A DNA stretch of 64,000 nt from Antedon bifida (lineage: Eukaryota; Echinodermata; Crinoidea; Comatulida; Antedonidae), in contig OY727094.1 in assembly GCA_963402885.1 (NCBI GenBank), positions 3,350,501 to 3,414,500 on the forward strand, in the 5' to 3' direction. Shown one piece after another: positions 18,757 to 63,400 of the stretch. How positions within the stretch are numbered: the first letter of the stretch is position 1; each line of letters opens with the position of its first letter. The position numbers were made by a program, and so were the translations under genes. The notes under the pieces were generated by a model. It did not search any database. It saw only the letters and a program-made list of their open reading frames with translations, and was not told where the DNA came from.

Positions 18757-19626
18757 TTAACTTCCCTTTTTTCCACAAATTTCATAAAATGCGTTTCGGA
18801 AATTAGGTAAATTATACCAATATATTAGAGGATTAGTCAAAGAATTGATAAAAACCAGACTTCCAGAAAAGAAATTTATATATGTAAGTAATACACCAAT
18901 GGAACATGTTAACCCTGGTATAAAAACAAGACAACTTGTTACAAGATACGGCAACCAGAGAATACAATACAGTATTGTTATTGTTAAGCACGTTTTTAGC
19001 AATTTTCTGGACTTCTTTGCGTTTGAAATATTCATTGAAATGAGATAATGATCTGATTTGGAAATACTGTGATAAATTTTAAAATAAAGAAGAATAGTTA
19101 TTATTAAAACTATAAGAAAAAGTACTGCAATTACCACATTAAAATAAGTTTTATTAATGTAATATAAGGCAGGTATGCTAAATATGGGTGCAACCCAAAT
19201 CGTAGCACAGACTATCATCTGACGTTTAAATGTTACGATGACGGAGTAACGTAAAGGAGCGTATACTAACGCAATGTAACGATCGACAGCAACGCAATTT
19301 ACGTTAAGCGATGACGTAAGAAGTATTGAGGCCATCATCAAGTTTGAAACAGCACTGTACTTTAAATTTAATACCACCGTGTTTATAAAATACACCAGTC
19401 CATTGGCACAATCTGCAAATGCCAAAGACACGATGAAAACATTGTGTTTCTTTCGCAGTTTCTTAGATCTAAGAATTACAAATATTGCAACACCATTTAA
19501 AAGCACAATCAAAATACAAATTACTGAAACCACTGGTATGATAGCTGTAAGTGCGTATTCATAAAACATTTCGTAATAGTAAATCCTCAAATTGGAAATA
19601 CAAGATGAATTATTGGAGATATTCAT
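18757..19626 (-). CDS. Class A orphan GPCR 2, intronless
   Basis: 289 aa. It starts MNISNNSSC with Asn-linked glycosylation motifs, followed by seven membrane segments. Landmarks: LNG at 43-45, LAFADC with D72, VDRYIALVYAPLRY (DRY 115-117), the cluster-typical intracellular loop SMNISNAKKSRKLLK, LWLPYL and NPLIYWYNLPNFRNAF. It is closely similar to receptors 3-6, and clearly of the same tandem family as receptor 1. No frame damage is seen. Ligand unknown. Confidence 0.87.
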   Translation of the reverse strand: MNISNNSSCISNLRIYYYEMFYEYALTAIIPVVSVICILIVLLNGVAIFVILRSKKLRKKHNVFIVSLAFADCANGLVYFINTVVLNLKYSAVSNLMMASILLTSSLNVNCVAVDRYIALVYAPLRYSVIVTFKRQMIVCATIWVAPIFSIPALYYINKTYFNVVIAVLFLIVLIITILLYFKIYHSISKSDHYLISMNISNAKKSRKLLKTCLTITILYCILWLPYLVTSCLVFIPGLTCSIGVLLTYINFFSGSLVFINSLTNPLIYWYNLPNFRNAFYEICGKKGS

Positions 19627-19787
19627 TTTAAAAGTTTCACTTTTGACGTACTTGCGTTATTCCTTCGAATATCCGTTGAAAGTTTTAACTTGACGTTCGT
19701 TAAACAGGTTTGACACGGGTAAATAGCGCGTTACATACAGTTTTTATTTCTCGGTACAGTTATAGTGATGACTGAGACACTCGTACG

Positions 19788-29686: not shown

Positions 29687-32600
29687 TTAATACTTTAACA
29701 TTAGGTGTTGTTTTAATTTTTTGGAAAATAAAGAAATTGAAACAGCATTTGTAATTGGGGGTGGTAAACTGTTCATCATTGATGGACCGGAGTATCTAAT
29801 ACTGTTTTGAAAATAATTGGTGTTGTGGATAGGTATGTGTATATTAGTTCTAGAACGTGTAGGGTAATTGTGAATAGAAAAATTCGGAATAAACATTTTG
29901 TTTAAATGATTTGGAGAAGTGGAATGCAGGGCGGAGAATACAAATTTGCCTTGTTGCATTATGTTTATATCAATGAGTTTGAGGAGATTAAGTTTGGAAA
30001 ATAAATGGGAAGAATGGGACCGCGGTGGAGCGCCAGATATAATCCTGATAGCCTTCTTTTGTATAATTTGCAGTTTACTGAGGTTGGATACGTAAGTATT
30101 GGCCCAGACAATGTTACAGTAGCTCAAATAGGGAAGAATGAGGGAGCAGTAAAGGGTTCGAAGAATATTAAGGGGTACAAATGAGGATAACCTAGAAATG
30201 ATACCAACGCTTTTGGAAGTTTTATTCTCTACTTCTTTAATATGATTTTTCCATGTTAGATTGCTGTCCATAACTACACCTAAAAACTTAGCTGATTGAA
30301 CACAAGGTATATCATGGTTGTCAATGGTAATTCTGTTGGCTGATAAGTCAATAGATTTTAATAGTTGTGGGGTCCCAAAGAGGATGAAGCTACATTTTTT
30401 ATGATTAAGAGAAAGTTTATTAGCTGCAAAATATTGGGACAAATTTATCAAATTGGAGTTGACTGTATTGAATAAGGATTGGACATTTTTGTTAGAATAA
30501 AGAACAGTAGTGTCGTCAGCATAAAGGAAAAAATTAAGGAGCTTTGAAGAGAAGTGAATATCATTGATGTATAGAATAAATAAGAGGGGGCCAAGTAGAG
30601 ATCCTTGAGGGACGCCGCATGTGATAGGACTAAAAGTGGATATGGAGTGAGAGTATTTGGTACATTGGGCACGATTGGAGAGGTAACTATTTAAGAGATT
30701 AATTGCAGATCCACGGATTCCATAGTGAGATAATTTGTGTAGAAGAATACTGTGGTCAATAGTATCAAAAGCCTTGGAAAGGTCTATGAAAATGCCGATT
30801 GCAAGATGGCGGTTTTCGAAAGCGTCTATAATTTTATTTGTCAGGTCGATGAGAGCCATTGACGTGTTGTGTCCCTTTCTGAAACCGTATTGTCTGTTGA
30901 AAAGTATGTTGAATTTGGTAATAAATGAAAATATTCGGTCATAAATTACTCTTTCCAGGGCTTTTGAAAAAATGGATAGAATGGAGATGGGTCGATAATT
31001 AGAAAGATCAGATTTTGGACCAGATTTGTAAATAGGGGTAACGCGCGCTAGCCTCATCCTCTCTGGGAACACACCGCTGGATAAAGCAAGATTAAAAATA
31101 TGACACAGGGGAAGGGAAATCAGGTCAGCAATGTATTTAATGGCCTTGGTATGAAAGTCATCAATACCTGGAGATTTATTATTTTCAAAAGAAGTTATTA
31201 TTTTGACTATTTCAGACTCATCAACTGGGTTAAGAAATATTGAATTTGGATTTGGATTCGGTAAGAATTCTTTGAATGATTTGGTAACACGGGGAATTTG
31301 GTTTGCAAGGGTGGGGCCAATTTCGACAAAGTATTTATTAAAGGCATTAGAAATTTTCTCCTGATCTTCGGTCAATTCGCCATCGCAGTTAAAGCGAGTA
31401 TTGGATTGTTGTTTGCTGTTGTTTTTGTTAATCAGAGAATTAATTGTCTTCCAAGTTGCCTTGATATCATTTTTATGTTTGTGAAATATATTTTGGAAGT
31501 AATTAGCTTTAGAAATTTTGATTACAGAATTCAATTTATTGCGGTATAGTTTATAAGCTTTTTCATTTATGGGAGTCGGACGGTGAAGAAATTTGGCATA
31601 TAATTTCTGCTTATATTTTATAGATTTGAGCAAGCCGTCAGACATCCATGATTTTATTTTTTTGTCTTTTTTAGTGTTGTATTGGAGGGGGAAGTTTTTG
31701 TCGTAAAGGGACTTTAGTGTGTTTTCAAAGTAATTGTATGCTATATCGGGGTCCTGGTTATAAAATACATTGGTCCACTGTTGAGAAGCCACTTCTTGAC
31801 GGAAGTGTTCTAATGTAGAGGGGTTAATTCTCCTAAAAGCCGATTTATCTTCCCTGTTTGAGCTAGTAGTAACATTGGACAAAAATGAAATATTAAACAC
31901 TGGGAGATGGTCAGAGATGTCACTGTAAAATAGTCCACTCATGTTTGGAAAGTCAATTTGATTGCTTATGATATTGTCTAACAGGGTAGCTGTAGTTTTG
32001 GTAATACGAGATGGTCTGTGAATGCGGGGAAGGTAGTGATTGCTAAATAAGGAATTAACAAAGTATTGGGCATCGTTGTCTGATTCATATTTGAGGATAT
32101 CAATATTGAAGTCTCCGAGAATGTACACAATTTTGTTTTCTCTTGATAGTTTTGATAAGACAGATTCAAGTTCGTTCGTAAATTGAAGAGGGTCAAGGGA
32201 TGGTGATCTATATACTGTACCAATGACAATGTTTTTAGAGTTAGGTCTATTAATCTCAATAAAAATGGATTCGCAAATAGAGGGATGGAGATGAAGATCA
32301 TGTCTTGTAGCAAATTGAAGACCATCACGAATATACATGGCAACCCCACCGCCGTCTTTATGAGTTCGGTGATTGGAGACAAAGTGGTAGTTAGGGAGTT
32401 GAACCAAGGGATTATCGTACTTAAGCCATGTTTCGCTTACGCCAATTACATCGAATGGTAAATCTAGTAATGTTAAAAGCTGTTTCATGTCGTCAAAATG
32501 TTTTAAAATGCTCCTTGAATTAAAATGGATAGTAGAGAAACATTCACTTGTGGTATTAACAGAAAATTCATTAGGATCGTAATATTGGGAGGTGCTCATG

Positions 32601-32791
32601 TTGCTATTTGAAAAAAATTGTGAATCAGGGTCAATATTGGAGGTAAAGTTATCTGGGTTGATTGAAGATGGAGAAAACAATAAACTTGATAATCGGTCGG
32701 AATTTGATGTGTTGCAATCTGATCTACAGTGGTTATGAGACATGATAGTACAATGCAAAAAACAAAAGTATAACAATAAAAAACAATTCAA
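29687..32791 (-). CDS. LINE ORF2 protein: apurinic-type endonuclease + reverse transcriptase
   Basis: 1,034 aa, or 1,018 from the second Met (MSHNHC), which may be the real start. Endonuclease/exonuclease/phosphatase-type domain at about 84-302 with SETW (E120), GDFN (D227) and SDHLP (H295). Reverse transcriptase at about 520-800: NYRPIS (598), FIDLSKAFDTIDH (D670), GVPQGSLLGPLLF (726) and YADDT (757-761). The C-terminal part (LSLNHKKCSFILFG, then YCNIVWANTY and PTRSR) is that of the CR1/L2/Jockey group. Endonuclease nicks the target and the RT copies the RNA in place. No RNase H domain is seen and all the catalytic residues listed are present, so the protein looks functional. Confidence 0.92.
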   Translation of the reverse strand: MNCFLLLYFCFLHCTIMSHNHCRSDCNTSNSDRLSSLLFSPSSINPDNFTSNIDPDSQFFSNSNMSTSQYYDPNEFSVNTTSECFSTIHFNSRSILKHFDDMKQLLTLLDLPFDVIGVSETWLKYDNPLVQLPNYHFVSNHRTHKDGGGVAMYIRDGLQFATRHDLHLHPSICESIFIEINRPNSKNIVIGTVYRSPSLDPLQFTNELESVLSKLSRENKIVYILGDFNIDILKYESDNDAQYFVNSLFSNHYLPRIHRPSRITKTTATLLDNIISNQIDFPNMSGLFYSDISDHLPVFNISFLSNVTTSSNREDKSAFRRINPSTLEHFRQEVASQQWTNVFYNQDPDIAYNYFENTLKSLYDKNFPLQYNTKKDKKIKSWMSDGLLKSIKYKQKLYAKFLHRPTPINEKAYKLYRNKLNSVIKISKANYFQNIFHKHKNDIKATWKTINSLINKNNSKQQSNTRFNCDGELTEDQEKISNAFNKYFVEIGPTLANQIPRVTKSFKEFLPNPNPNSIFLNPVDESEIVKIITSFENNKSPGIDDFHTKAIKYIADLISLPLCHIFNLALSSGVFPERMRLARVTPIYKSGPKSDLSNYRPISILSIFSKALERVIYDRIFSFITKFNILFNRQYGFRKGHNTSMALIDLTNKIIDAFENRHLAIGIFIDLSKAFDTIDHSILLHKLSHYGIRGSAINLLNSYLSNRAQCTKYSHSISTFSPITCGVPQGSLLGPLLFILYINDIHFSSKLLNFFLYADDTTVLYSNKNVQSLFNTVNSNLINLSQYFAANKLSLNHKKCSFILFGTPQLLKSIDLSANRITIDNHDIPCVQSAKFLGVVMDSNLTWKNHIKEVENKTSKSVGIISRLSSFVPLNILRTLYCSLILPYLSYCNIVWANTYVSNLSKLQIIQKKAIRIISGAPPRSHSSHLFSKLNLLKLIDINIMQQGKFVFSALHSTSPNHLNKMFIPNFSIHNYPTRSRTNIHIPIHNTNYFQNSIRYSGPSMMNSLPPPITNAVSISLFSKKLKQHLMLKY

Positions 32792-33775
32792 ATTGAAAAA
32801 TAAAAATTGATGTCAAGAAAAAATAATTCAAATAAGAAAAATAAATTCCTTCGGGTCTTAAGGACCGGGGTGTGCTAATGGATATAGCTCAAGACATAAG
32901 GATCGGAAAATAGGAATACATGATATTTGGAAACGTTGTTAAAAGGATTAAAGGAATTAAAATAATAATATGGTAAATAAAAATACAACTTCATAACATA
33001 ATAATGATGATATCAATAACGCCAATATAACATTAGTATCAGTGATGTTAATATCAGAGATATTGATATTTGGCCCATCAATAAAATAATAGTATCAATA
33101 AAATAGGTAATAGTAATAGTTAAGATAATAATAATGTTAATATTATGTATTATAGAACATAAACATCAGTAATAACATTAGGGATAAGATCAATAATAGA
33201 AATAATAATATAAACAATACAAACATAACATAATCAAAGTCAATAATGTCAATGAAAATATCAGTTACGTCAATCAATGAAAATATCAGTAACGTCAGTC
33301 AAAGAAAATATCAGTAACGTCAGTATCAGTGGTAATATTTGGCCCATTAAAAAAAAATGATATAAATAAAACAACAATAACACTAATAAACATATAATAA
33401 TGGTACTTATGATAACGCCAAAAACTGCCGCTAACATTAAGTCATTGACAACCTTTTTTTGACAATAGGCCTGTGTATAGGACTACGATAAATAATAATA
33501 CAAGTAATAGGCATAAAAAATAAGGGTAAAGTTTGAGTACAAAAAAAAAAATGAAGAATGAAAGTAAAAATTGCAAAAATGATAAAGGATCGATTAGCAA
33601 TGTTTATAATGAAAGTTAATTAAGGTTCAACAAAGTTTCAGAGTGTCCTGCAAAATAAGAAGTCAACGTTTGAAAGTCATTATGGAGTGATAGTTAACTT
33701 TGTTCAATAGGCAAGTTAGTGGATGTAATAAAGAGTACTTAGCTGTCGGTGCTCAAAATTAATAGAGTACTACGT
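32792..33775. other. Unusually long spacer between LINE ORF1 and ORF2
   Basis: About 985 bases of very AT-rich sequence with ATAATA-type strings and, near 33255-33325, three copies of a short GAAAATATCAGT(T/A)ACGTCA unit. No coding frame of note. In most two-ORF LINEs the ORFs overlap or are separated by a short gap, so this may be a decayed insertion or an untranslated region peculiar to this family. Confidence 0.6.
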
Positions 33776-34711
33776 CTAAAGGCGTCGGATGTCAGATTCA
33801 GACCTGATGATCACTTTTTTCTGGTTCTTCTTCAGCAAACAGGTGATTCTCCCATCCATGGACCAAGCAGCTTCTACAGCTTCGTTGCGTGATGCTTCGT
33901 GCAGCAGATGAAGGCGCTTAGATGTAAGATTCTCCGTTATTGAGTAGCCGCTATTCTTTAATGATCGTTTGTTGCGAAACACTTCATGACGCGTGCGATA
34001 AGAGGTAAACTTGATTATAATTGGTCGTGGTTTGGATTTAGGATCGGTTTTCTTTTTGCCAAGACGGTGTGTACGGTCAATATCGCGTATCTCAACATCC
34101 TCGGAGATCCTGGATGTGATTACATCAATTGCTATCGCATCGGTGTCCTCTTTAGGGTATCGTGACTCAGGGACACCGTGCAGAAGCAGACAGTTTCGTC
34201 TGCTGTATTGCTCCAGGTCGTCCAGTTTGTCCGCCAAAGCACGATTTTCTGCCTCGAATGCGTCATTTCGTCTACGAAGATTGTCAATATCGCCCGTAAT
34301 GACCTCGTTGTCCATAGCAATACTACTGTAAACAATGTCGCTTACCTGATCAAGAACGGCTTTACTAATCGCAGATATAAGTGCTTTATTAGACATTATT
34401 GCTTTGATGATTTTTTGTAATAATTCTGGAGATGACAGTACATGGGTGCTTATACTTGACGCTACAATTGAAACCAGTTCAGGGTCATCGGCTAAGATGT
34501 GTTGAATGGAGCTAGGCCCCTTAGACGGTGATAATTCGGGCAACGTTGTTGACAATGGTGTTGTCGGTTCAGGGTCGCGCGCTTCCGGGTCGACCGTATT
34601 GGGTACAGCAGCAGGTTCGAGGCCTGGGTTTTTCGTGGCCATGTCATCATTAGATTTCACGTTTGCTGATTTACCCTTTGATCTTGTTGTTCTCTTTTCG
34701 GTTGATGCCAT
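33776..34711 (-). CDS. LINE ORF1 protein (coiled coil + RRM-like nucleic-acid-binding domain)
   Basis: 311 aa from the MASTEKRTTRSKGK start at 34711; the frame is open further up to 34966, but that part lies largely outside the element. Order: basic N-terminus, Pro/Ser/Thr-rich linker, helical segment, coiled coil (IDNLRRRNDAFEAENRALA at about 145), then the L1-ORF1-like RRM region beginning DLEQYSRRNCLLLHGVPE and containing RTHRLGKK and RPIIIKFTSY. Such proteins bind the element RNA and form trimers as part of the retrotransposition particle. Frame intact. Confidence 0.85.
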   Translation of the reverse strand: MASTEKRTTRSKGKSANVKSNDDMATKNPGLEPAAVPNTVDPEARDPEPTTPLSTTLPELSPSKGPSSIQHILADDPELVSIVASSISTHVLSSPELLQKIIKAIMSNKALISAISKAVLDQVSDIVYSSIAMDNEVITGDIDNLRRRNDAFEAENRALADKLDDLEQYSRRNCLLLHGVPESRYPKEDTDAIAIDVITSRISEDVEIRDIDRTHRLGKKKTDPKSKPRPIIIKFTSYRTRHEVFRNKRSLKNSGYSITENLTSKRLHLLHEASRNEAVEAAWSMDGRITCLLKKNQKKVIIRSESDIRRL

Positions 34712-34892
34712 TGTTATTTCCTCTATGTATAATGATAGATCAGTAGGGGTTGAAATTGATGCAAATTTAAGATCCTTCTTGGAGCTAACTTCAACACGTC
34801 CTGTCAGTGTGAAGCATGTATGGCTGACATTGTCATCAGAAAAAAAACGTAATTTACGTCTAAAACAGGATAGATTTAGTTGCAGAGATTGA

Positions 34893-35045
34893 AAGGTTAT
34901 CGCAAATAGCTTGATTTCGCGAGGAACGTCATTGCACAATGCATGGTGGAAAGGGATTGGGAGCAAACGTCACGATGCGTACGTGACGTTTGCTCCTAAA
35001 CCTTTCCCACTATGCGCCACGCACTCGCTATTTGTGATCAACCTT
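34893..35045. repeat. Foldback element, unit II copy
   Basis: Same inverted arms as at 24751 (GGGAGCAAACGTCACG / CGTGACGTTTGCTCC), differing by single bases. It sits just beyond the 5' end of the LINE. Confidence 0.78.
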
Positions 35046-50759: not shown

Positions 50760-51311
50760 TATATTATTATTATCAATAAACTTCTAGGCATAGGAGTATT
50801 GGATTGAGCAAAGCGTCTTCATCATTTTTACTCAATTAGATCCATAGATACTGTATTAAGATACTGTAGCCTATTAAGATCCGACCAGGGAGTTCTAAAT
50901 AACAACCCATTGCTGCTCCAACTGTATCCCAATTTTAGCCTATATTATTATTATTATCAATAAACTTCTAGGCATAGGAGTATTGGACTGAGCAAGGCGT
51001 TTTTGTCATTGTTTTCTCCATTGGTTTTTAGATCTTGAATAAAATTAGTAGAATCATCCATGTTTAGATAGATACCGTAAGATAGCTCCGACCAGGGAGT
51101 TCTAAATAACAACCCCCTGCTGCTCCAATTGTATCCCAATTTTAACCTATATTTTTATTTATCAATAAACTTCTAGGCCTATTGGACTGAGCGAACTGGT
51201 TAGATCTTGGATAAATTAAGTAGAATACCCATGGTTAGATAGATAATAAAGTATAGCTCCGACCAGGGAGTTCTATTTAACTCCCTGCTCCATGTATAGC
51301 CTAAAATCCTA
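50760..51311. repeat. Three-copy tandem repeat upstream of the class C receptor
   Basis: Copies of about 180, 207 and 160 bases each contain TATCAATAAACTTCTAGGC, GTATTGGA(T/C)TGAGC, then TCCGACCAGGGAGTTCTA and (first two) ACTGTATCCCAATTTTA. Copy borders are near 50760, 50943 and 51150. The third copy is shortened at both ends. Confidence 0.8.
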
Positions 51312-51666: not shown

Positions 51667-54600
51667 ATGGAAATCGTTTTACTATTACTAAGCCTGTCTG
51701 CGAGCGTTTTAGTATCATCTTCTACATCGTCTCAGACGTGTTCATCTCCTTTGGTCGGTGTTGTAGATGGTAACGTTCGTCTAGGATTTCTCTTTCCATT
51801 TTCTGGTAAAGATGGTGACTTCTGCTCCAGCGAACCAATAGCGGAGAACATCGCTCTTGTGGAGGCTGCCATTTACGCTGTAAAGAATATACCTGATGCC
51901 TCTAAAATCCCTGGCGTTAACATAGGTGAGTGCATACTGTATATCTGATTGCATGAATCAATTGATATTTAATGGGTTGATGGGTATATAGGCCTATAAT
52001 GTTTATACAGGAATTGATTGATATTGATTGAATACGATAATAGTATAGTTTTAAAATAAATGGCCTATTATTTTAGATTCATATAAGGAAATGGCATATG
52101 TAAATAGGCCTACAGTATATTTGGAGAATGTTATTGTTTGTTGTTCAACGTTTATTTTGCAACGTAGCCAGCCATACTTGGCTGTAAGCCATGAGCTTCA
52201 TTAACTCTTTAGTAATCCTAGACGTTTTCGTCGAACAAATAAATGAAATGAAATGCGTTATAGATAATAATTGTAAAAATGGTAAGCCTCCTGCTGAATT
52301 CGATTACTTATTTATTTAACAACACCCTTACAGGAAAAATGATTAGTTTTGTAAAAAAAAATTAGATCGATATCTACCTTTGAATGAAGCAATTGTTGGG
52401 GAATATTTAATTTCAGTTTGTAGGTTATTCCATATTTTTGTGCCTGCAACTTCGATTACCACCTATCTGATAGGACAGTGATTAATTTGCTATTGGTAAT
52501 CCTTTGCTACATGTGTCTAAATATATAACATAAAATAAAAAATTACGAATTATCTTAGGGTATTGTTATAATTATTTAGGGGTTCTACTCCACGTGTTAA
52601 GTGAGTATGAATATTGCCAATCAGCTCAATTTTGCAATATAGTATTCCATTAAGGCCTATTACTGTCCAATATGTTGTCTAAAAGATCTTCAACAAAAGT
52701 AGGCCTACTGATTGATTGTCACATATCGTACTTATATAATTGTTATAATGGTTTTCTCGAGTGGATTTTTCTTTGTTTCGTCAGGTTTGGAAGCGTTTGA
52801 TTCCTGCTCATCACATAAAGTAGGAGGTCAACATGTCCTTAATTACATCGATAATCAATTATACAATGCAAATGGGTCATTATGTAGTGACGTAATACTA
52901 AGACCAGGTAAGCCAATACAAAATAAACCGCATTATGTTATCATATCAATTAGAACATGGTATCCAGCTATTAAATTTGAATTATTTGTTTTATAGGCCT
53001 AATACAAAATAAATAAAGACAAAAAGAAAAAAATAAAGTTTGATAGAGTAGACAGAGCCTTAAAATCAATTTTAGTCAAACGTGCTTGTTTCTTTTCAAC
53101 CATTCTGTTTATTTCTTCAGGTATAATTGGTCCAATGGTTGATGAAGTAACTCAATATGCATCTCCTCTCTTAGCATATCACAATATTCCTTTAATCGCC
53201 TATGGAGAAACTACCTCATCTGAATTTACTGACAACAGAGATATTCACAGTTCTTTCTTAAGTCTTGCTCCATCAGAAAAGATACAAGTTCAGGTACGAA
53301 GAAGAGTCTGTAAAGCATTGTCTACCTGTCATATCACTACCATATTTGAGTATATCTCTACCACTTTTTTGTCAAACTAGTTTGATAGCGTAGACAGAGC
53401 TTAAATCTTGGTTACCACTAGGACGTTTAGACGCAATGCAAGCGAGTTGACCAATCACACGCGACTGTTCATATAATCGATCGCCTGTGATTGGTCAAAT
53501 CACTTCGCGTTGCGTTACGTGTTTGTGTTGCGTCCTAGTGGGAACCAAGCTTTAGTTATATTTCTATGTTTCTATATATATATTTCTATTGAATATATTG
53601 TTTCCTTCACAGGTTATAGTCGATCTGCTTTGGAACATGAATTGGAACTATGTTGCTGTCATGTATTCAGAAACTATGGAGACAGCATTTGACGAACTTC
53701 TGACAAAAGCCGATGACGCTGGAATATGCCTGGCTGAAAAAGTGCGAGTTACGCCTCACATCCAGGACACATTTGAAGACGGAATTATGAAGATATTAAG
53801 GAACTCTGATATTAAAGGCAAGTACGGTTATATTAAAATATCGACACAAAAAGTGATTTTGTTATTCCATTATTATGTAAATTATTTTGTTTTGTTTTAG
53901 TGGTGGTTCTTCTGTTAGAAGATACGTCCATCTTGTCGTCTGCAATGGAAGCCATTTCAAGTGTCGGGGATTCTGCGTCCGACCTCCAGTGGGTATCTAA
54001 CGTAGAACCAACACTACAACTTCAAACCACTCATAAAGACGTCATCCGTGGACTGGTATCGATCAAATATACAAGAGAGATTAACGAAAACTTCAAAACA
54101 TATTTAAACTCACTGAACCCAAGTTTAGTGTTGACTGACGTGAATCCTTGGTTCGCGCGAGCTTGGGAAAATATTAATGAATGTGATTTAACACACGATG
54201 GCGTCTATGGTGTACCATGTAACGAGTCAACCGAATTTACCTTAGAGACGTTTAACAATGTTGACGTCATCGTGTCAAATATAATTGATGCTGTGTTTGT
54301 ATATGCTGAAGCGTTAGCAAAACTTCACCAGGAATTGTGTGGTGCAACCGTGGGAATATGTGAACGATTTGGTTCAACGGCTAGCCAGAGTTTGTCGGGT
54401 ACACTTTCAGCAGATGATTTTACAGGTGCCTTGAATCAGACGATTGTGTTTGAAGATAATGGGGAACCGAAGCGTGTCGAGTTTGATATTCACAATGTAC
54501 AATTGGATAATGATGGAAATAGTACCTTGGTTAAGGTTGGTTGATTAAAATCTAAATTTATAAAAGTAAATATCCTTATGTATTTAAGTTAGCTAAGTAT

Positions 54601-57600
54601 TTATCGTTTACTACTATATTAATAAAGATATGTACGGAACTACTGTACTCCGATTAAAAAAAAATAAATTGAGTAAAACTCTTCTTTTGGGACTCCTATT
54701 CAGGGGATACTTTTCCGTAAACTGAACGAATGGCAATACTACAGTCAGCCATTATTCAGTGGATACCCCTATTAAGACGTTGGTCCCAAATCTGTCCTTT
54801 TAATATCTATTGTTATATCTTATATTCTATTAGGTTGGTGAATGGAACACAGACACAGGAATAACACTAGGTATGAATAGCCTACAGTTATGGAATTCAT
54901 CCGCGCAGCTTGAAGACATTCCAATTTCTATTTGTCCAGACTCTTGCACAAAATGTCTTTCAAGCTCAGCTAAATCATTTATCATAGATGGTGATGTCAT
55001 TTTCGCAGGGATGTTTTCCATTCATGACGTCAATTGTAGTGTTTTCAGGACATCCGGGTACGTGCGAATGCAGGCGATGTTTTATGCTATCCAGATGATA
55101 AATAACAATGAGAACATTCTTCCAAATGTGACTATTGGTATGGCGGCCTATGACACGTGCTCCGATAGTAGAATAGCAGGTTCTCAGACGTATCAGTTCA
55201 CATCCGGGTTCCAACAAACAGAAGAACTTTTTATGAATAGAAAACAAAGTGGAAATCAGCAGTATGCAATCGGGGCTAGTGGAGCAGATAGGAATGACCT
55301 CACTAGGTCTGTCAACCAGCAGTTAGCTGCAGTTGACATGGTTCACTTTGGACAACTTTCAACTGCATCTAATGCTCAACTTGTCGACTTCTATCACGTT
55401 GTTGGCACTGACCAAAAACAAGCAAGAGTTTTGGTTGATATTCTTTTACAAGCTGAATATAAATATATTCAAATTCTAGAAGGTCAATATGCAAATGAAG
55501 CTGTGAAAACTTTGAAAGATCTTGCCGTTAAGGTAAAATAAGACTTAAATAAACAGTAAACATACCAATTGTAAAAGTTTTGCAGCACCATTTATGATCT
55601 TTTTTTACTTAGTTCTAATAACTAATTATTAATACAGTAATATTTTGTTCCAAACAGGCCGATATCTTTGTTGCAAACTCAATTGTTGTAGACGACGACA
55701 CCTCTTTTGATGACGTAATACACAGATTACTAGCGTATCCAACAGCTGACGTCATTGTTGTCTTTTTGGAGGTTCCAGAAGTAAATCAGTTCCTTAGAGC
55801 CCTTGATCGTGCCGGACTAGAGCAGAAATTTCAGATTTTGGCTTCAGACAAATGGGGCTTAGACTCATCAGCTGTAGATGGTGTTGAATCAGTTGCTAAG
55901 AGTAAATACAATATATTAATTTAAACCAGAAATAATTATTGGCCTATAGAATGGAAACTGAAAATAAGTTTAGTATTTTTAGTACGATTTGATACGATAA
56001 GAATACAATATTTTCCAATGCGTATTGTTTGGCGTCGTATTGCAATTTTATCTTTGGTTTTTCGTCACTTTCAGATTCAATAACCATCTCTCCAAAAACT
56101 CTGGCCAATTCAGAATTTGAATCTTATTTTACCGGATTACAACCAAACAATTCTGCTGATCCGTGGTTCGCAGAATTCTGGATGGGACGCTACAACTGCC
56201 AATTACCGGGTCAACCAATCCTCTATGATGAATTATGCTCAGGTTTGACATTACACACATTTCGAATGATTTTTTTATTACATGGATTAAATGTGGAGTA
56301 GCCGCGTAAATATATAAGAATATTGTAAAGTATGGTTTAAGATTTATTAATGACATTCCAAATAATTTTAAAGTAATTTACAGTTATATTTTACCTTTTT
56401 AATGAATAATAACATGTACTGTCATAGGTGTATTATTATACTTCGTCCTATACTGATGATAAGTATTTGTACATTTTTAAAGAGAAGAAGTATAGAAGTT
56501 GTATTTCAGAACAATATGATATGCTACCGTATAGTTTATGTATACTTTTACTATTTTCCATAGATTTGGATGTCTTAAGCGCAATGGATGCCCAAAGTCG
56601 CACTATTGCCAGTGTTATAGATGCTGTGTACGTTCTTGCTACAGCTTTAGATATGTTGATTCGCGACAAGTGTCCTGAAGTGGGTACTATCTGTAAAGAT
56701 TTACAATCGGTATCAATGGATGAGTGGCTCTCTTATATCAATGAAACGATGATAGAGAGTTTGAGTGGGTCAGAAGTCGCATTTGATGAAAATGGACAAG
56801 TAAATTCGGCTGTGTATGACGTAAACAGATACGAGGGACTTAATTCGGAATTTGGTTACCAGACTGTAAGTTATCACTAACTAAATACACTCGTTGTCAA
56901 CTTAAGTTTAAAATCACAACATTCAACTCATTTTCAGGGTTTTTCCTCTAAGTTTCTTTCCAATATGTAACTTTTGGTAATAAAATTTTAAATTATTAAA
57001 TTTGTGTTTATTTTGCTTTTATTAGATCGGATCCTGGAAAGATGGTGTCGGGTTAGAAGGGTTAAACGTTGCCGATTTTGAAAATGTAGCATCAGAATGT
57101 CCTTACAAAACTCTTCCATGCTCTAACGAAAACCCTAAGCTGTCGATAATTGACGGAGACATCGTTATTCCCGCTTTATTTTCAACACACACTGCTGGTT
57201 CCTCAGCTTTGAGGTGTGGCAGCCTGAACCTAGAGGAAGTTGTAGCAGTACAGGCCTTGATTTACGCGATGGATGAAATCAATGGAGACAATAACATATT
57301 ACCAGGGCTGACTCTTGGGGCAGCCGTTGCTGATTACTGCGGGAGCACATTGATGGCGTATGATCAGTTCGTGAATATTGTTGGTAATTCTAGTCGGTAC
57401 GGCCATGATTTTGCTGTCATTGGACCAGTTGATTCAGTGGTGGCTTCTGTTTTAGTTCCAAATGCTGTAAACACACTGGGCTTTACCGCCGTGAGTAAAA
57501 TATTGAAAAAACAAATTAGTATGAAGACTAAAAAAATCAGTAGGCCTACTACAGCATTGATTGTTTCAGTTCTTATGCCTATAATCAATGTCCTATATTC

Positions 57601-59914
57601 TAAATTAACCAGAATATAAAAATAAAAACGTTTAAATTTCATATCTGTAATAAAAATAAATATTTAATTGGTCATACATTTAAACCAATTTATAGTTTGT
57701 TCGTACATAGATTAACATTGAAATCTTATCATTTTTAGATCAGTCCGTCTTCGTTTGATAACGAAAGTGCATCATCATCATCAGCAGCACCGTATCATAT
57801 CTTTACCAAACAAAGCCAACTACCAACTTTCTCTACTCTGGCGGAGCTAGTGATTTACTTCAATTGGACCTACATAGCAATTGTATACACAGACTCAGAT
57901 TACGAACGATTTCAAGCTGAGCAATTCACAAAAGAAATCGAATATCTGGGTGTTTGTGTGGCAGTGAATAAGGGAATACCAGAAGATGGAAGTCGTTTGC
58001 AGTTTGATGGAATCATTTCAGAAATATCGACATCAGAAGTAGGCGTGGCAGTTGCGTTCTTGTCTGACGGCCAGTTTTCTATACTGCTTGAAAGCAGAGC
58101 TACATTTGGAACAAATGAAGCCAATGTAATGTGGGTAGGATCTTTTCCAAGCATCTATGACGTCACAGCTTTTAAGAACTCACCAATAGCAACATTATCC
58201 ACACAAAGACAATACCAGTATGATCTTACTGAATTTGAGACGTATCTGAAAAACATTGATCCACTTGACGATCATGGAAATCCTTGGTTTAAAGAATATT
58301 TTGAAATACTAGCTAATTGTAGACTTGAAGATGAATTTACGTCTCCCGTCCCGATATGTGAAGAAGGCTTGACCTTAACAAGCGTTGATGAATCTCTTCT
58401 TCGTATATCAGATCTGGTTGCTGAAACTATTAAATCTGTATATATGATTGCGCAAGTTGCTCACAACAGACTTTCTACTCTTTGTGGGGAGAATTCAATG
58501 TCGATATGCAGTGATTTTTTGGAACCTGATTCACATGGAATATACAATGCATTAGCAAATGTTGAAATTCATCCACCAATTACTGAAGAAGCTATCAAGT
58601 TTAATGAAGGAGAAGTTAAAGAAGAGATTGTTATTTTTAATCAGATAGGTGGTCAGAATGTCGAAGAAATAAAGGTACACATTTAGTTCATATAGGCCTA
58701 TTTACTCTGAACTTTGTTTAATGTTTAATATAGTTACCATTATATATTGCCATTTTATTTTAAGGTTGGAAATATACTTTCTGGAACGCTAAACATTGAT
58801 GTTTCCAAGATAAAGTCGTACGACATCAATGGCAATCTCCACGAAGGTGTAAGAACGTCGACATGTCCGGTTGGTACGTCCTGCAATTGCGAGACATCAT
58901 CGTCACCAGAAACAACTGGTGATACTGATAAACTTGATGACAGTGAAAGTATCGTCTGGAATGTTGAAGGCTACTGGGTCACCATCGTTTTGGCGGCATC
59001 TGCAACATTTACAGCATTGATGTTGTTAGTTGCCGGTTACTTATTTTACTACAGACATCACACTGTTGTCATTGAAGCTTCTCTGAACCTGAGTATCTGG
59101 CTAATTATTGGATTGATATTGATGTATGTAATGAATTTACCATTTATGGTCAAACCTACAGTAATCGTTTGTGGTATAAGACGAGTTGGTGTCAGTTTTG
59201 TGTATGCCATCATCTTCTCTGCACTATCAGTTAAAATTATCCGGATCAATAGACTACGTCGTCGTTTGGTTCCGGAAGAACCAATCGGATTTATTGGTGC
59301 TTCATCACAAACTCTATTTTTCTTTGTATTTTTAATGGCGGAAATTGTGTTGGTTGTCGAATGGCTGATTCTCGAACATCCATCAACTGTTTTAAATTCA
59401 AATAATGAGACACTGTGCTCTTTCGAAAAACTTGATTTAGTTATATCTTTATCGTACGCTTGTTTTCTAGTATTATTTTCATTAATAGCATCCTTTGGAG
59501 CTTTGGGTTCATCAAGTGTCAATAGCGAGGCGAGATTTATTTTTCTTGCGTGCTTCTCAACTATATGTTGCGTCATCGCGTGGACGTGCGTCTATGTTTT
59601 ATCAGACGATACGGATTATGAGTTACCAAGTGTTTGTGTCGGATTAACTTTAAATTCAACTCTTATTTTTATCGCCATTTTTGTACCAAAAGTAAATGTT
59701 CTTTGTAACGTGTATTCAGCAAAAAATGAAAGACCAGTTAGGAATTCGAAGATGGGACAAGCGTACGCAAACACAGGTAAGTAATGACATCATCAAGGGC
59801 ATGTGCAGTCGTTTTAGACCTACGTAATATAAACAGGAGTATTAAACGTATTTGTCACTTTTTCTTCTTTCAGCTCTTCATACAAACGAAGAAGAAGCGC
59901 TTACTAATTTATGA
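51667..59914 (+). CDS. Class C GPCR-like receptor with three tandem Venus-flytrap domains, 1,753 aa
   Basis: Thirteen exons: 51667-51925, 52785-52907, 53121-53293, 53613-53817, 53901-54535, 54834-55532, 55658-55901, 56075-56242, 56564-56865, 57026-57490, 57739-58674, 58765-59776, 59874-59914; the sum is exactly 1,754 codons. A signal peptide (1-22) is followed by flytrap domain 1 (about 30-480), domain 2 (about 514-945), domain 3 (about 976-1410), a short Cys-poor linker with TCPVGTSCNC (1436-1445) and a class C 7TM region (about 1472-1718). Flytrap marks recur in all three: FAGMF/FLFPF start, WNYVAVMYSE or WTYIAIVYTD, and NPWF/DPWF. 7TM marks: CGIRR (C1539, pairing with C1621), RINRLRRR, FVPKV. 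It would be a plasma-membrane receptor sensing small molecules; key glutamate-binding residues (GSSS) are not kept, so the ligand is unknown. Intron 4 is GC-AG. Three fused genes read as one is the alternative, but exons span the domain borders. Confidence 0.82.
53033..53063. repeat. Terminal remnant of foldback MITE family 1
   Basis: AAGTTTGATAGAGTAGACAG then AGCCTTAA, the right terminal repeat only, in intron 2 of the class C receptor gene. Confidence 0.55.
53311..53404. repeat. Foldback MITE family 1, copy G (short)
   Basis: TAAAGCATTGTCTACCTGTC .. CATATCACTACCATATTTGAG .. GATAGCGTAGACAGAGCTTAA. Both ends are present but much of the interior is deleted. In intron 3 of the class C receptor gene, directly next to another element. 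Confidence 0.75.
53403..53555. repeat. Foldback element (CTAGGACG family) in class C receptor intron 3
   Basis: Arms AATCTTGGTTACCACTAGGA and TCCTAGTGGGAACCAAGCTT are inverse, with further mirrored parts GTTGACCAATCACACGCGA / GCCTGTGATTGGTCAA. It abuts copy G of family 1, suggesting one element landed beside or in the other. Confidence 0.78.
54640..54790. repeat. Decayed repeat in class C receptor intron 5
   Basis: Motifs TGGGACTCCTATTCAGGGGA and CAGTGGATACCCCTATTAAG recall the element at 4800-4898. Borders unclear. Confidence 0.4.
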
Positions 59915-60518: not shown

Positions 60519-61055
60519 TTACACTGTTAGCAAGGAATACAAACAGTAAAACACGATGAAGATGGTTGGTATCTGTGTCAATGTAAATCCCAAAGCTCTC
60601 TTAAAAGGATCTTTGACGTATCCAATCCAATAAACAACCCTTCCAACCACAAACAATATCACCAGCAATGGTATAATCTTCATACAACCTGCGTCCAAGT
60701 ATGTGGAGAGGATGAGTTCCGAAGGAGCTCTGATAACAAACTGCTCCACAGTATTCTGAAGAACTCGGCAATGAACGTTGATGACGTGTGATGCTGGCAT
60801 AGGCTTGGTGGGATCTCCAACCTTTGTAAGGTCACTTCCACGAGTCATACCAACCGTCAAAATCATGACAATCAAAAGGCCAACTTCCAGTATCTGCCAT
60901 TGAGCGGTGTACACCAGACGATCCAGGACAGCATTCAGATTAGAAGTCTGGAAATTGATATAGTTCCATCCGACGTAAAAATATGCAGCCAGAAGGAAAA
61001 ATCCAATCGCACTGTCTCTCTTGATTCTGGATTCGATTTCAGATTTAAGTGTCAT
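60519..61055 (-). CDS. TMEM79/MAPEG-like membrane protein A, intronless
   Basis: 178 aa with about four membrane segments (16-33, 50-70, 110-145, 155-176). Key stretch VHCRVLQNTVEQFVIRAPS (94-112) is the MAPEG-type signature as seen in the C-terminal domain of TMEM79 (mattrin), together with FYVGWNY (26-32) and GRVVYWIGY (138-146). MAPEG proteins include glutathione-dependent membrane enzymes and leukotriene-synthesis proteins; TMEM79 itself acts in lysosome/lamellar-granule function in mammals. Catalysis is not predicted. It lacks the long N-terminal part of TMEM79 and aligns without gaps over most of its length with the gene at 62099. Confidence 0.78.
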   Translation of the reverse strand: MTLKSEIESRIKRDSAIGFFLLAAYFYVGWNYINFQTSNLNAVLDRLVYTAQWQILEVGLLIVMILTVGMTRGSDLTKVGDPTKPMPASHVINVHCRVLQNTVEQFVIRAPSELILSTYLDAGCMKIIPLLVILFVVGRVVYWIGYVKDPFKRALGFTLTQIPTIFIVFYCLYSLLTV

Positions 61056-62098
61056 ATTGACGTCAGTTGAGTTGAGTAATGCACCTTATAGTACTGTTGA
61101 ATTCCTGTTGAAGTCCTGTGTCATACGTCAAAGAGAAGGATTAGACAGTTGGCACAACCGTTACACTAGTCTTTGCAAGACGACAACGCCTTTAAAAACA
61201 ACACAAATGTACAGGGTATACAACGGAAAAGGTCAGATTTAATTGGCTACAAATATGTTCGAACTCCGAACCGCTTTTGTTCCTTTCTTTGCTTTAATAG
61301 TCCGTTGAACCAAAGAACTGTTGCTCTATTTGAACATACAATAGCACAATGGTGTAATCTGATATTAGGGTGGTGGTGCTGGATTAAATCAATACACGTT
61401 CCGTCAATTATTGATTAAAATCGTCGAGTATGATCGTGAATCAATAGATCTTTTTTTTACCCGTTGTATTGCGTGTATGGTGGCTATGCTGCAAAATGAA
61501 CGATGATGCTAATGCAATTCAATGCACTTTTCTTAATACGGTAATGATTCTTTCAAGCAGCTGTTCAAGATCAAATCAATTCAAATGCTACATCCATGAG
61601 ATAATGAAATAAAGTAAAGATTATACTCGTCTATTATTTCCTGTTATTGGGTATTCTATCCACTTTATTACATTGTTGTTTGTGCTAAAATCATCTATTT
61701 AAGCCCTTTCCGGCCATGTATCTCCCCTCTGGTCCTACTTGTAAAATCAAGTTTTTTTTTTCATTTACAATGTGCATTCACATTGCTACCCTCTCAATAT
61801 CTTCCACAGGTGAAATGACAAAACTGGTAAATTGTTTTCCTTTTTAATAACTAGCGTCAAATCATCAAATGAGGTTTAAGTAATAAAAGAAAGTGTTGCT
61901 TTAAATGATATTTCATGAGACATTCTAAAAATCTATGTGTTGAAACTCTGTCCAGAACACAGAGAGAAAGGGTGCAGTCATTGTCAGTGACGTACGGTAC
62001 CGTTTCTAATGGCGAGTTTCTAGAGTCTCTTCCATACACCAGCACAGAAGTTGACGTCATGTATTCTTAGACATGTAAAAGGGTGCTCGACGTCTAAT
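61056..62098. other. Spacer between the two TMEM79-like genes
   Basis: 5' flank of gene A and 3' flank of gene B. No gene or clear repeat recognised. Confidence 0.5.
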
Positions 62099-62662
62099 CT
62101 AAGTAGAAGACAATCCGAACGTTGCTCCTTTGGTGAAGAAGCAATACAGATTGAAAAACATCATCAAAACCGTCGGCATAAATGTCATTGAAAATCCAAG
62201 AGCTCTTTGAAATGGACCACGGGTGTATCCAACCCAGAAAGTGATCCTTGCTACCACAAAAAACGTGACCAACAACGGAATCAGTTTCATTGACGTCTGC
62301 TCGAGATATGTGGAGAGAATGAGTTCAAACGGTGCTCTCAAAGCCAATTGCTCCACAGTATTCTGGAGAACTCGAATATGCACGGTAATAATATGTGATG
62401 GTGGCATTGGTTTAGTCGGATCTCCAATTTTGTCCACACTCCTAAACCGGGTGTTGGCTACTACCATGATCATCGTGAACAGAAGGATTACCTCCAATAC
62501 TTGCCAGCGCGCGGTGAAAATCAGACGATCGAATACAGAATCCAAGCCCGTAGTATCAATAGGAAAGTAATTCCACCCGATGTATGAGTAGACGGAGAAC
62601 AGAATTAGTGCTATGATGCCGTCTTGTATTATTCCAGATTGGGTGTCCTTTTTAGGAGACAT
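62099..62662 (-). CDS. TMEM79/MAPEG-like membrane protein B, intronless
   Basis: 187 aa from MSPKKDTQSG at 62662. The frame is open twelve codons further, but this start aligns residue for residue with gene A (YIGWNY at 27-32, DPTKPMP at 81-87, VHIRVLQNTVEQLALRAP at 94-111, FWVGYTRGPFQRALGF), so I prefer it. Four membrane segments. The extra C-terminal residues (TKGATFGLSST) extend beyond gene A. Same orientation as gene A, 1 kb apart: a tandem duplication, clearly older than the receptor duplications since many residues differ. Confidence 0.78.
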   Translation of the reverse strand: MSPKKDTQSGIIQDGIIALILFSVYSYIGWNYFPIDTTGLDSVFDRLIFTARWQVLEVILLFTMIMVVANTRFRSVDKIGDPTKPMPPSHIITVHIRVLQNTVEQLALRAPFELILSTYLEQTSMKLIPLLVTFFVVARITFWVGYTRGPFQRALGFSMTFMPTVLMMFFNLYCFFTKGATFGLSST

Positions 62663-63400
62663 TTTGAGTAGGTATATCTGGATCACCTCTTTCCTCAATG
62701 ATACAGTATAATCTGAACGTCAAGCGCAAACGTGTTTGTATTTAAACCACCTTTGTTGATACAGAACAATAGTTGATTTGCTTTAAGTTTGAACATTGAC
62801 TATATATAATAACAATGTAATCAATACCACGGTATCGGCTGAAGAACTACCGGTGAACTGTGTCTATCAGATCCGGTGCAATATACAAGGGATTTAATAA
62901 CATATGTTGTTCTCTATGTACGATGTGCTTGGAATTTGACGAGAAGCGACAATGTAGGCCTATGATTCCATGATTCTTGCGGGTGCCCGTAGAACAAACG
63001 TTAATTTCAAACACTCTTTTCGCAATTTTCTATAATTATAATAAACCAATAAGTCAACATAATAATTTTAACTGATTTTGCATTGTATTTATACAAAGTT
63101 GACGTGTAACAGTATTTGAACGCGCGCGCCACTTTCTCTCTGCGTACTGTAGTGTCATTTGATAATTAGAGTTAGTCAGCGCCACCTAGGATGACTCTTT
63201 AGTAGTTATGTTTTACATCCCTGGCGAATAATCGACGAGTCCAAACACTGAAATAGAAAATAAATGGCGGTTTTCAGTTTCCGAAAAAGAATGCTACAAA
63301 AACAACACATTTGGACGTCAAATTTAATTGGAATGCACAAACTGAATAATCAAAATAAAACATTGTATTTCAGTCTCAATGGAACTGAGTGTTTGACATT
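62663..63400. other. Upstream region of TMEM79-like gene B
   Basis: Contains a GC-richer patch (GAACGCGCGCGCC near 63119) that might mark a promoter. No coding frame supported. Confidence 0.35.

Follow-up and report, generated by a model that had tools for sequence, protein, structure and literature searches.

The stretch of DNA analysed here, which we call the window, comprises 64,000 nucleotides of the crinoid Antedon bifida (assembly GCA_963402885.1, contig OY727094.1, positions 3,350,501 to 3,414,500 of the forward strand), and on its plus strand, at window positions 51667..59914, it carries a gene that had been read from the letters alone as a class C G protein-coupled receptor (GPCR) with three consecutive Venus flytrap domains (VFTs) ahead of one seven-transmembrane region (7TM). 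We rebuilt the exons from splice signals and called ANF_receptor and 7tm_3 domains with Pfam. The thirteen exons sum to 5,262 nucleotides in a single open frame, that is, 1,754 codons including the stop (1,753 amino acids) with no internal stop, the same total as in the original prediction, and the profile search that it had proposed for the joined translation recovered three ANF_receptor stretches (E 2.8e-92) and one terminal 7tm_3 stretch (residues 1471-1712, window positions 58966..59691, profile positions 4-251 of 251; E 3.5e-30). Of the twelve introns only intron 4 departs from GT-AG, with GC-AG at its ends. On this sequence evidence we regard it as confirmed that the gene is real and encodes a single chain of class C with three flytraps and one 7TM, and a chance reading of the frame is ruled out because there are orthologues in other crinoids. 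The splice junctions rest on that orthology and on splice signals, which has to be counted against the reconstruction.

The first five exons are given to VFT1. Exon 1 (51667..51925), which ends in phase 1, holds the signal peptide (approximately residues 1-21, 51667..51729; the cleavage site is approximate) and the start of the domain, exon 2 (52785..52907) includes a loop cysteine in the word NGSLC, and exons 3 (53121..53293), 4 (53613..53817, followed by the GC donor) and 5 (53901..54535) continue VFT1, the last of them with most of its second half. Intron 5 (54536..54833, phase 0) marks a module boundary ahead of VGEW, after which exon 6 (54834..55532) carries the last strands of VFT1, linker 1, with the cysteine cluster CPDSCTKC found by pattern search (residues 499-506, 54933..54956), and the first half of VFT2. 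Exons 7 (55658..55901), 8 (56075..56242) and 9 (56564..56865), the last with the end of VFT2, lead up to intron 9 (56866..57025, phase 0), the boundary ahead of IGSW; exon 10 (57026..57490) then combines the end strands of VFT2 with linker 2 and the start of VFT3, the remainder of which lies in exon 11 (57739..58674). Beyond intron 11 (58675..58764, phase 0), ahead of VGNI, exon 12 (58765..59776) encodes the end strands of VFT3, a short linker and the complete 7TM, as placed by Pfam and a fold model; ahead of the 7TM a pattern search found CPVGTSCNC (residues 1437-1445, 58864..58890) at the place of the cysteine-rich domain of metabotropic glutamate receptors (mGluRs). Exon 13 (59874..59914) supplies the C-terminal tail, with the last residues EEEALTNL, and the stop.

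This arrangement bears out the claim that exons 6 and 10 each bridge two neighbouring flytraps, and that neither opens with a signal peptide of its own. Scored by a rough hydropathy measure, the whole chain is most signal-like at residue 1 (2.79), followed by residue 843 within VFT2 (2.14) and residue 244 within VFT1 (2.03), while close to where VFT2 and VFT3 begin the score reaches only 1.45 and 1.64. In the same profile the 7TM run closes the chain, and upstream of it four 19-residue windows have hydropathies of 1.60-1.94; these are the signal peptide and three segments within the flytraps.

Introns 5, 9 and 11 are the phase-0 introns, each followed by V/I-G, that had been noticed where the flytraps end; they occupy one and the same alignment column of the three units, and no further intron position is common to the units in that alignment. 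Exons 6-9 (1,413 nucleotides) and exons 10-11 (1,401 nucleotides) thus delimited are both symmetrical 0-0 modules. In a profile search of the genome (315.6 Mb in 27 contigs) at least 39 pieces matched 7tm_3 and at least 77 matched ANF_receptor. Among the places listed and the loci fetched, the sole further place with several VFTs before a 7TM was on contig C11 at approximately 25286-25298 kb (loci L015 and L019), where, on the plus strand, four VFTs (lettered from VFTa on) are followed by a 7TM behind a single signal-peptide-like start, MYRLIFHIGLLCWMVTQSHSQTC; this gene was read from the fetched loci. Phase-0 starts of the form AG|IG and AG|VG were found at two of its four junctions. In all 11 single-VFT crinoid loci inspected the frame continues through the module-intron point, though two of them (L004 and L010) have an in-frame AG there. 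The simplest reading of these sequences is that the flytrap array grew through cassette duplication. Elsewhere in the genome, C1:114799-222675 holds a cluster of five VFT pieces, spaced out along a single strand, which was considered as a third multi-VFT gene and rejected: in the two stretches fetched from it the VFT matches were only weak (E 7e-4 and 1.5e-5), and a class C 7TM was missing.

The protein searches scored only the candidates sharing most words with the query, 7,989 for the receptor and 7,983 for a query with the 7TM placed first. The receptor query gave five matches, namely two crinoid proteins, two gastropod proteins (2,872 and 3,067 amino acids) and one distant algal protein; the 7TM-first alignment query returned just the two crinoid proteins from its candidates, missing even the molluscan members. 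The architecture, which the original prediction had proposed to look for in other echinoderms, recurs in the Anneissia japonica protein P0002 (1,763 amino acids, annotated as uncharacterized), which is 62% identical across 100% of the length and likewise has three ANF_receptor stretches and a 7tm_3. P0001 of Antedon mediterranea (1,408 amino acids, annotated as metabotropic glutamate receptor 3-like) is 92% identical over 80%, and this model is without the N-terminal part, that is, most of VFT1. Between A. bifida and Anneissia the identity is 278/431 (65%) for VFT1, 265/420 (63%) for VFT2 and 254/423 (60%) for VFT3, and it is highest for the 7TM (175/246, 71%). No sea urchin, starfish, hemichordate or annelid match appeared among the 7,989 and 7,983 candidates scored, which is no proof of absence.

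One of the gastropod proteins, P0003 of Littorina, has five ANF_receptor stretches and a 7tm_3 by Pfam, and a search with it as the query gave 40 proteins, itself included, whose domain order we wrote in a code (V for VFT, 7 for 7TM) counted with our own profile. The order VVVVV7 was read in 29 of the 40. Twenty-two of these carry names, which belong to 19 species of mollusc, comprising gastropods, bivalves and the cephalopod Argonauta; the other seven, which have no species name, lie on contigs of 8,823-11,087 bases that are approximately 78-98% filled by the frame, which suggests that they are transcripts. Four models are shorter (P0030 and P0036, VVVV7; P0031, VVV7; P0032, VVV). P0033, P0034 and P0035 represent a second molluscan paralogue, B, and in Mercenaria the two paralogues have adjacent locus numbers. 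The 40 also include seven fish models (P0037-P0043), three of which read V7V7 and two VVV7 (P0041 and P0043), while in P0037 and P0038 our profile counted six or seven VFTs but saw no 7TM. All seven contain the cysteine-rich domain NCD3G, and P0041 and P0043 are probably merged neighbouring genes.

A Pfam scan of the whole three-flytrap chain found no NCD3G. The word CCWxC of the mGluR cysteine-rich domain is present in eight of the 11 single-VFT crinoid loci (L001, L002, L004, L011-L014 and L016), and the frames of the other three stop earlier. The A. bifida receptor has short cysteine-bearing linkers: the cluster in linker 1 has a counterpart, CPRPCVEC, in Littorina (linker 2 of A. bifida gave no match to the cluster pattern), and the motif before the 7TM follows the pattern C-x(1-3)-G-x2-C-x-C, as do CPVGVDCNC in paralogue B of Sinanodonta and CPTGSTCEC in Argonauta. 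This pattern was found in 29 of the 33 multi-VFT proteins that have a 7TM, compared with none of five fish proteins. A loop cysteine at the place of the mGluR inter-chain bridge, counted in nine molluscan proteins out of the 29 with five VFTs and in two crinoids, is always present in VFT1, whether crinoid (2/2) or molluscan (9/9), and likewise in molluscan VFT5 (9/9), and is missing from molluscan VFT2-4 (0/27) and crinoid VFT2-3 (0/4); by eye, the corresponding stretch of VFTa in the four-flytrap gene is DDGTACSSTS. At the other end of the chain the tail stretch KMGQAYANTALHTNEEEALT is identical in Antedon and Anneissia, and the C-terminus reads T-N-L or T-T-L. The last 140 residues also hold a Y-x-N word in all three crinoid proteins (YANTA) and in 28 of 33 molluscan-type proteins (often YDN), resembling a Grb2 SH2 site; it occurs in five of the seven fish models as well and hence is possibly due to chance.

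Taken together, these comparisons suggest that the poly-VFT build is a family trait, with three and four VFTs in crinoids and five in molluscs, and two accounts of its descent were weighed. On the first, which we hold to be somewhat more likely than not, the receptors would be an ancient bilaterian class C branch predating the deuterostome/protostome split, with arrays of three to five flytraps grown as phase-0 cassettes, one or two amino-acid pockets per chain, and pseudo-flytraps that clamp or space a covalent dimer. On the second, which is unlikely but the most probable of the rival readings, the VFT of an mGluR-like receptor was duplicated separately in the two groups, crinoids and molluscs, and no one ancient family of poly-VFT receptors exists. 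We compared them on an unrooted 7TM tree, made without a GABA-B outgroup and with long branches, of 14 multi-VFT rows (three from three-flytrap crinoid receptors, one from the four-flytrap gene, and 10 of the 30 molluscan-type) and 20 others (mGluR2, three fish CaSR-like and 16 crinoid single-VFT). All 14 multi-VFT rows formed one group with support 96/92, outside the mGluR, CaSR-like and crinoid single-VFT rows, and when four long-branch rows were omitted the three-flytrap crinoid and molluscan rows (13 in all) grouped at 100/98. The 7TM of the four-flytrap gene is strongly diverged, with an end branch of 2.64. By the approximately unbiased (AU) test, joining the three-flytrap crinoid rows to mGluR gave p 0.023, or p 0.028 with four more mGluR-like rows, joining them to the CaSR-like rows gave p 0.027, and joining the four-flytrap row to mGluR gave p 0.019; joining the two kinds of crinoid row to each other gave p 0.448.

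Several results weigh against an old common branch, and those of the AU test, like the long branches, also speak for separate duplications. In the full tree the three-flytrap crinoid and molluscan rows without the four-flytrap row had support of no more than 82/37, the join of three-flytrap crinoid rows with mGluR rose to p 0.053 when the four long rows were left out, and the join of molluscan rows with mGluR was not rejected either with those rows (p 0.073) or without them (p 0.077). The motif before the 7TM was unmatched in Anneissia (CPIDSCTC), in Patella, in paralogue B of Mercenaria and of Nucella, and in the crinoid four-flytrap gene. The flytraps themselves gave a mixed answer. In a quick VFT tree, scored only by the Shimodaira-Hasegawa-like approximate likelihood ratio test (SH-aLRT) and made from 62 of 68 rows (five Patella rows and VFT5 of Nucella paralogue B omitted), each molluscan VFT position formed one group spanning both paralogues, and VFT1 and VFT2 of the three-flytrap receptor paired with VFTa (94) and VFTb (84) of the four-flytrap gene and not with molluscan VFTs, as separate origins would have it. 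VFTc, however, sat with molluscan VFT2-5 (SH-aLRT 97), and VFT3 of the three-flytrap receptor had no distinct partner. Against separate origins stand also the 7TM group itself, which strengthened when the long rows were dropped, and the features that crinoid and molluscan receptors have in common, namely the cysteine linkers, the motif in 29 of 33 proteins, the missing NCD3G and a loop cysteine that VFT1 follows one rule in keeping. Given that the AU tests support the grouping only in part, a single origin is favoured, not proved.

What such a chain might bind was approached by aligning eight amino-acid contact places to mGluR7, with P values that are only a guide since several domains were tested. 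VFT2 of A. bifida has the mGluR7 residue at six of the eight (binomial P 0.011), at an overall identity of 30%, compared with one in VFT1 and three in VFT3. The places retained in VFT2 are R78, T188, D208, Y236, D318 and the serine that immediately precedes T188, to which the label S186 was given; R78 is retained in VFT2 only, and the K409 place is altered in all three flytraps. The original prediction had envisaged three ligand pockets per chain, and three working ones are not supported: VFT1 and VFT3 have lost most of the amino-acid-holding residues, and VFT2 alone keeps most of them. That all three VFTs nevertheless bind ligands, letting one receptor combine as many as three signals, seems to us improbable; it would fit the near-equal conservation of the three domains between Antedon and Anneissia (65, 63 and 60%), and VFTs can in general bind ligands through unlike residues, but VFT1 and VFT3 keep just one and three of the eight contact places in Antedon and one and none in Anneissia. 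The residues S, T, D, Y and E stand at the five backbone places in VFTc of the four-flytrap gene, matching the fish CaSR rows, and in molluscan paralogue A four to five of these places are kept in VFT1 in five of six species (Argonauta keeps one) and in VFT5 in five of six (Littorina keeps two).

The single frame, the domains, the relatives with three, four and five VFTs, the partly kept pocket of VFT2 beside the degenerate ones of VFT1 and VFT3, the VFT1 loop cysteine and the module introns are all seen in the sequences; how the receptor works is a proposal. We consider it probable that the gene encodes one class C GPCR of the poly-VFT family, with three tandem mGluR-type VFTs, short linkers, an mGluR-type 7TM and no cysteine-rich domain, that works as follows. 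The receptor would form a parallel dimer, covalently tied at the distal VFT1, for which the loop cysteine there is suggestive; an amino-acid-like ligand would close VFT2, the one working pocket of each chain, and the closure would be relayed via VFT3 and the short cysteine linker to the 7TM, which may couple to a G protein, perhaps in the manner of mGlu2/3. VFT1 and VFT3 might act as scaffold, dimer interface or allosteric spacers, and the conserved tail ending in T-x-L could bind a PDZ scaffold, the array having presumably been enlarged via duplicated, intron-bounded phase-0 cassettes.

There are points that tell against this scheme. In Anneissia the counts are five of eight for VFT2 (P 0.074), one for VFT1 and none for VFT3, and its VFT2 lacks an equivalent of D208, so that even VFT2 is non-canonical; the S165 and K409 places are altered in VFT2 of both crinoids. 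The S186-labelled place is weakly diagnostic, and when it is omitted the counts out of seven for VFT2, VFT1 and VFT3 become 5, 1 and 2 in Antedon and 4, 1 and 0 in Anneissia. The fold prediction for the VFT3 exon had a mean predicted local distance difference test score (pLDDT) of 36, from an alignment of three rows, and what we say of the G protein, the ligand, the dimer and PDZ binding is inferred.

Two degenerate pockets, and the want of a cysteine-rich domain for transmitting closure, might also be taken as signs of a decoy or adhesion-like receptor that has lost signalling and uses the array as a rod. We think this a poor fit, given that the 7TM is the best conserved domain and matches nearly the whole 7tm_3 profile, that the tail is conserved, and that GABA-B receptors, likewise without a cysteine-rich domain (PMC12716839, in the part available), are generally known to signal.

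The notion that two soluble or truncated VFT genes stand next to an ordinary one-VFT receptor and have been joined on paper only is the least credible of all. Seeming fusions do exist, as the seven fish models illustrate, and from the two that read VVV7 it follows that such models can come from merging, which is a caution for our own gene. The original prediction had also held that separate polyadenylation signals inside introns 5 or 9 would betray adjacent genes. Words of the form AATAAA/ATTAAA do occur there (four in intron 5, approximately 1.1 expected, and two in intron 9, approximately 0.9 expected), but intron 2, inside VFT1, is also rich in them (five, approximately 1.0 expected), and hence such words point only weakly to the end of a gene. 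Against a paper fusion, there is no 7TM between the VFTs, signal-like scores at the VFT2 and VFT3 starts are weak beside that of residue 1, introns 5, 9 and 11 measure just 298, 160 and 90 bases, the last strands of each VFT share an exon with the start of the next part, the order is kept in Anneissia, 29 proteins have five VFTs and for seven of these the frame nearly fills the contig, and the NCD3G of the fish models is wanting in the three-flytrap receptor.

The receptor's surroundings in the window may be recorded briefly. Immediately upstream of its start, at 50860-51290, several spaced near-copies of the short word GACCAGGGAGTTCTA were seen by eye, and downstream, at 60522-62719 on the minus strand, two adjacent MAPEG-family genes lie tail-to-tail with it. 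Farther upstream the minus strand has, at 17000-40400, tandem rhodopsin-type GPCR frames at approximately ten places, highly alike and some of them split or partial by eye; a domain scan of one copy (18760-19656) gave 7tm_1. Within this array, at 29687-34969 on the minus strand, lies what by eye resembles a long interspersed nuclear element (LINE), with a 1,041-residue frame resembling endonuclease and reverse transcriptase and an upstream 397-residue frame resembling its first protein. At 430-11594, on the plus strand, there is a frame of tetratricopeptide repeats (TPR; 430-3366) and, downstream, a CHAT domain piece (5363-5977).

Of the known systems the mGluRs are closest. Among the PDB matches listed (the best 60 of 94, 87, 90 and 90 rows, and all 45 for the 7TM query), the best were mGluR4 for VFT1 (1e-36), mGluR7 for VFT2 (6e-53), mGluR3 for VFT3 (2e-36) and mGluR2 for the 7TM (3e-21), and the predicted 7TM model, with seven helices and a mean pLDDT of 70.4, found its nearest structural matches in mGlu2 and mGlu3. 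The crinoid receptor differs from mGluRs in having three VFTs per chain and not one, in lacking the NCD3G/CCWxC cysteine-rich domain, and in the residues that hold the glutamate side chain, with R78 in VFT2 only and K409 in none; it perhaps differs also in the descent of its 7TM, which the best tree sets apart from the mGluR rows (p 0.023 for the alternative, 0.053 without the long rows). The class IV mGluRs of invertebrates, as described in the part of PMC6307864 available, resemble VFT2 in keeping the backbone contacts and changing the side-chain contacts, but have both Arg78 and Lys409 replaced, whereas VFT2 retains Arg78; the words tandem and venus do not occur in the main text of that paper as available. 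GABA-B receptors share the VFT without a cysteine-rich domain (PMC12716839, in the part available) and have one VFT each, and none was among the PDB matches listed, whose rows were mGluR, CaSR and T1R. The fish class C models likewise have several VFTs per predicted protein, but unlike the crinoid receptor all have NCD3G, and the three that read V7V7 look like merged neighbours. The bacterial sensors BvgS and EvgS, in the sources partly available, also set several VFTs in series before a single membrane-coupled output; the output is unrelated and the VFTs are of the bacterial type, and the likeness is an analogy only.

In models of class C activation a single flytrap closes and meets its partner on top of a stiff cysteine-rich stalk. 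A chain of three to five flytraps that lacks this stalk must relay its signal differently, and poly-VFT receptors are therefore a natural experiment in how far from the membrane ligand binding can still switch a 7TM; they bear as well on pseudo-domains in receptors and on receptor growth through exon cassettes, and since five-flytrap members occur in 19 mollusc species, the question can be put to the test in animals already reared in captivity. The builds given for metazoan class C receptors in the available part of PMC12716839 are ANF with NCD3G, ANF alone, or Cache with EGF, that is, at most one flytrap per chain. The earlier statement that no receptor of this build had been described agrees with our searches of an open-access library, whose listed papers name no multi-VFT GPCR and have tandem VFTs in bacterial sensor proteins only, subscription papers being mostly outside its coverage. 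What we report is thus a real receptor of unusual build, belonging to a multi-phylum family for which we found no description in that library and whose function we infer; if the family is indeed an old branch, no earlier class of GPCR would have had an ectodomain of several flytraps.

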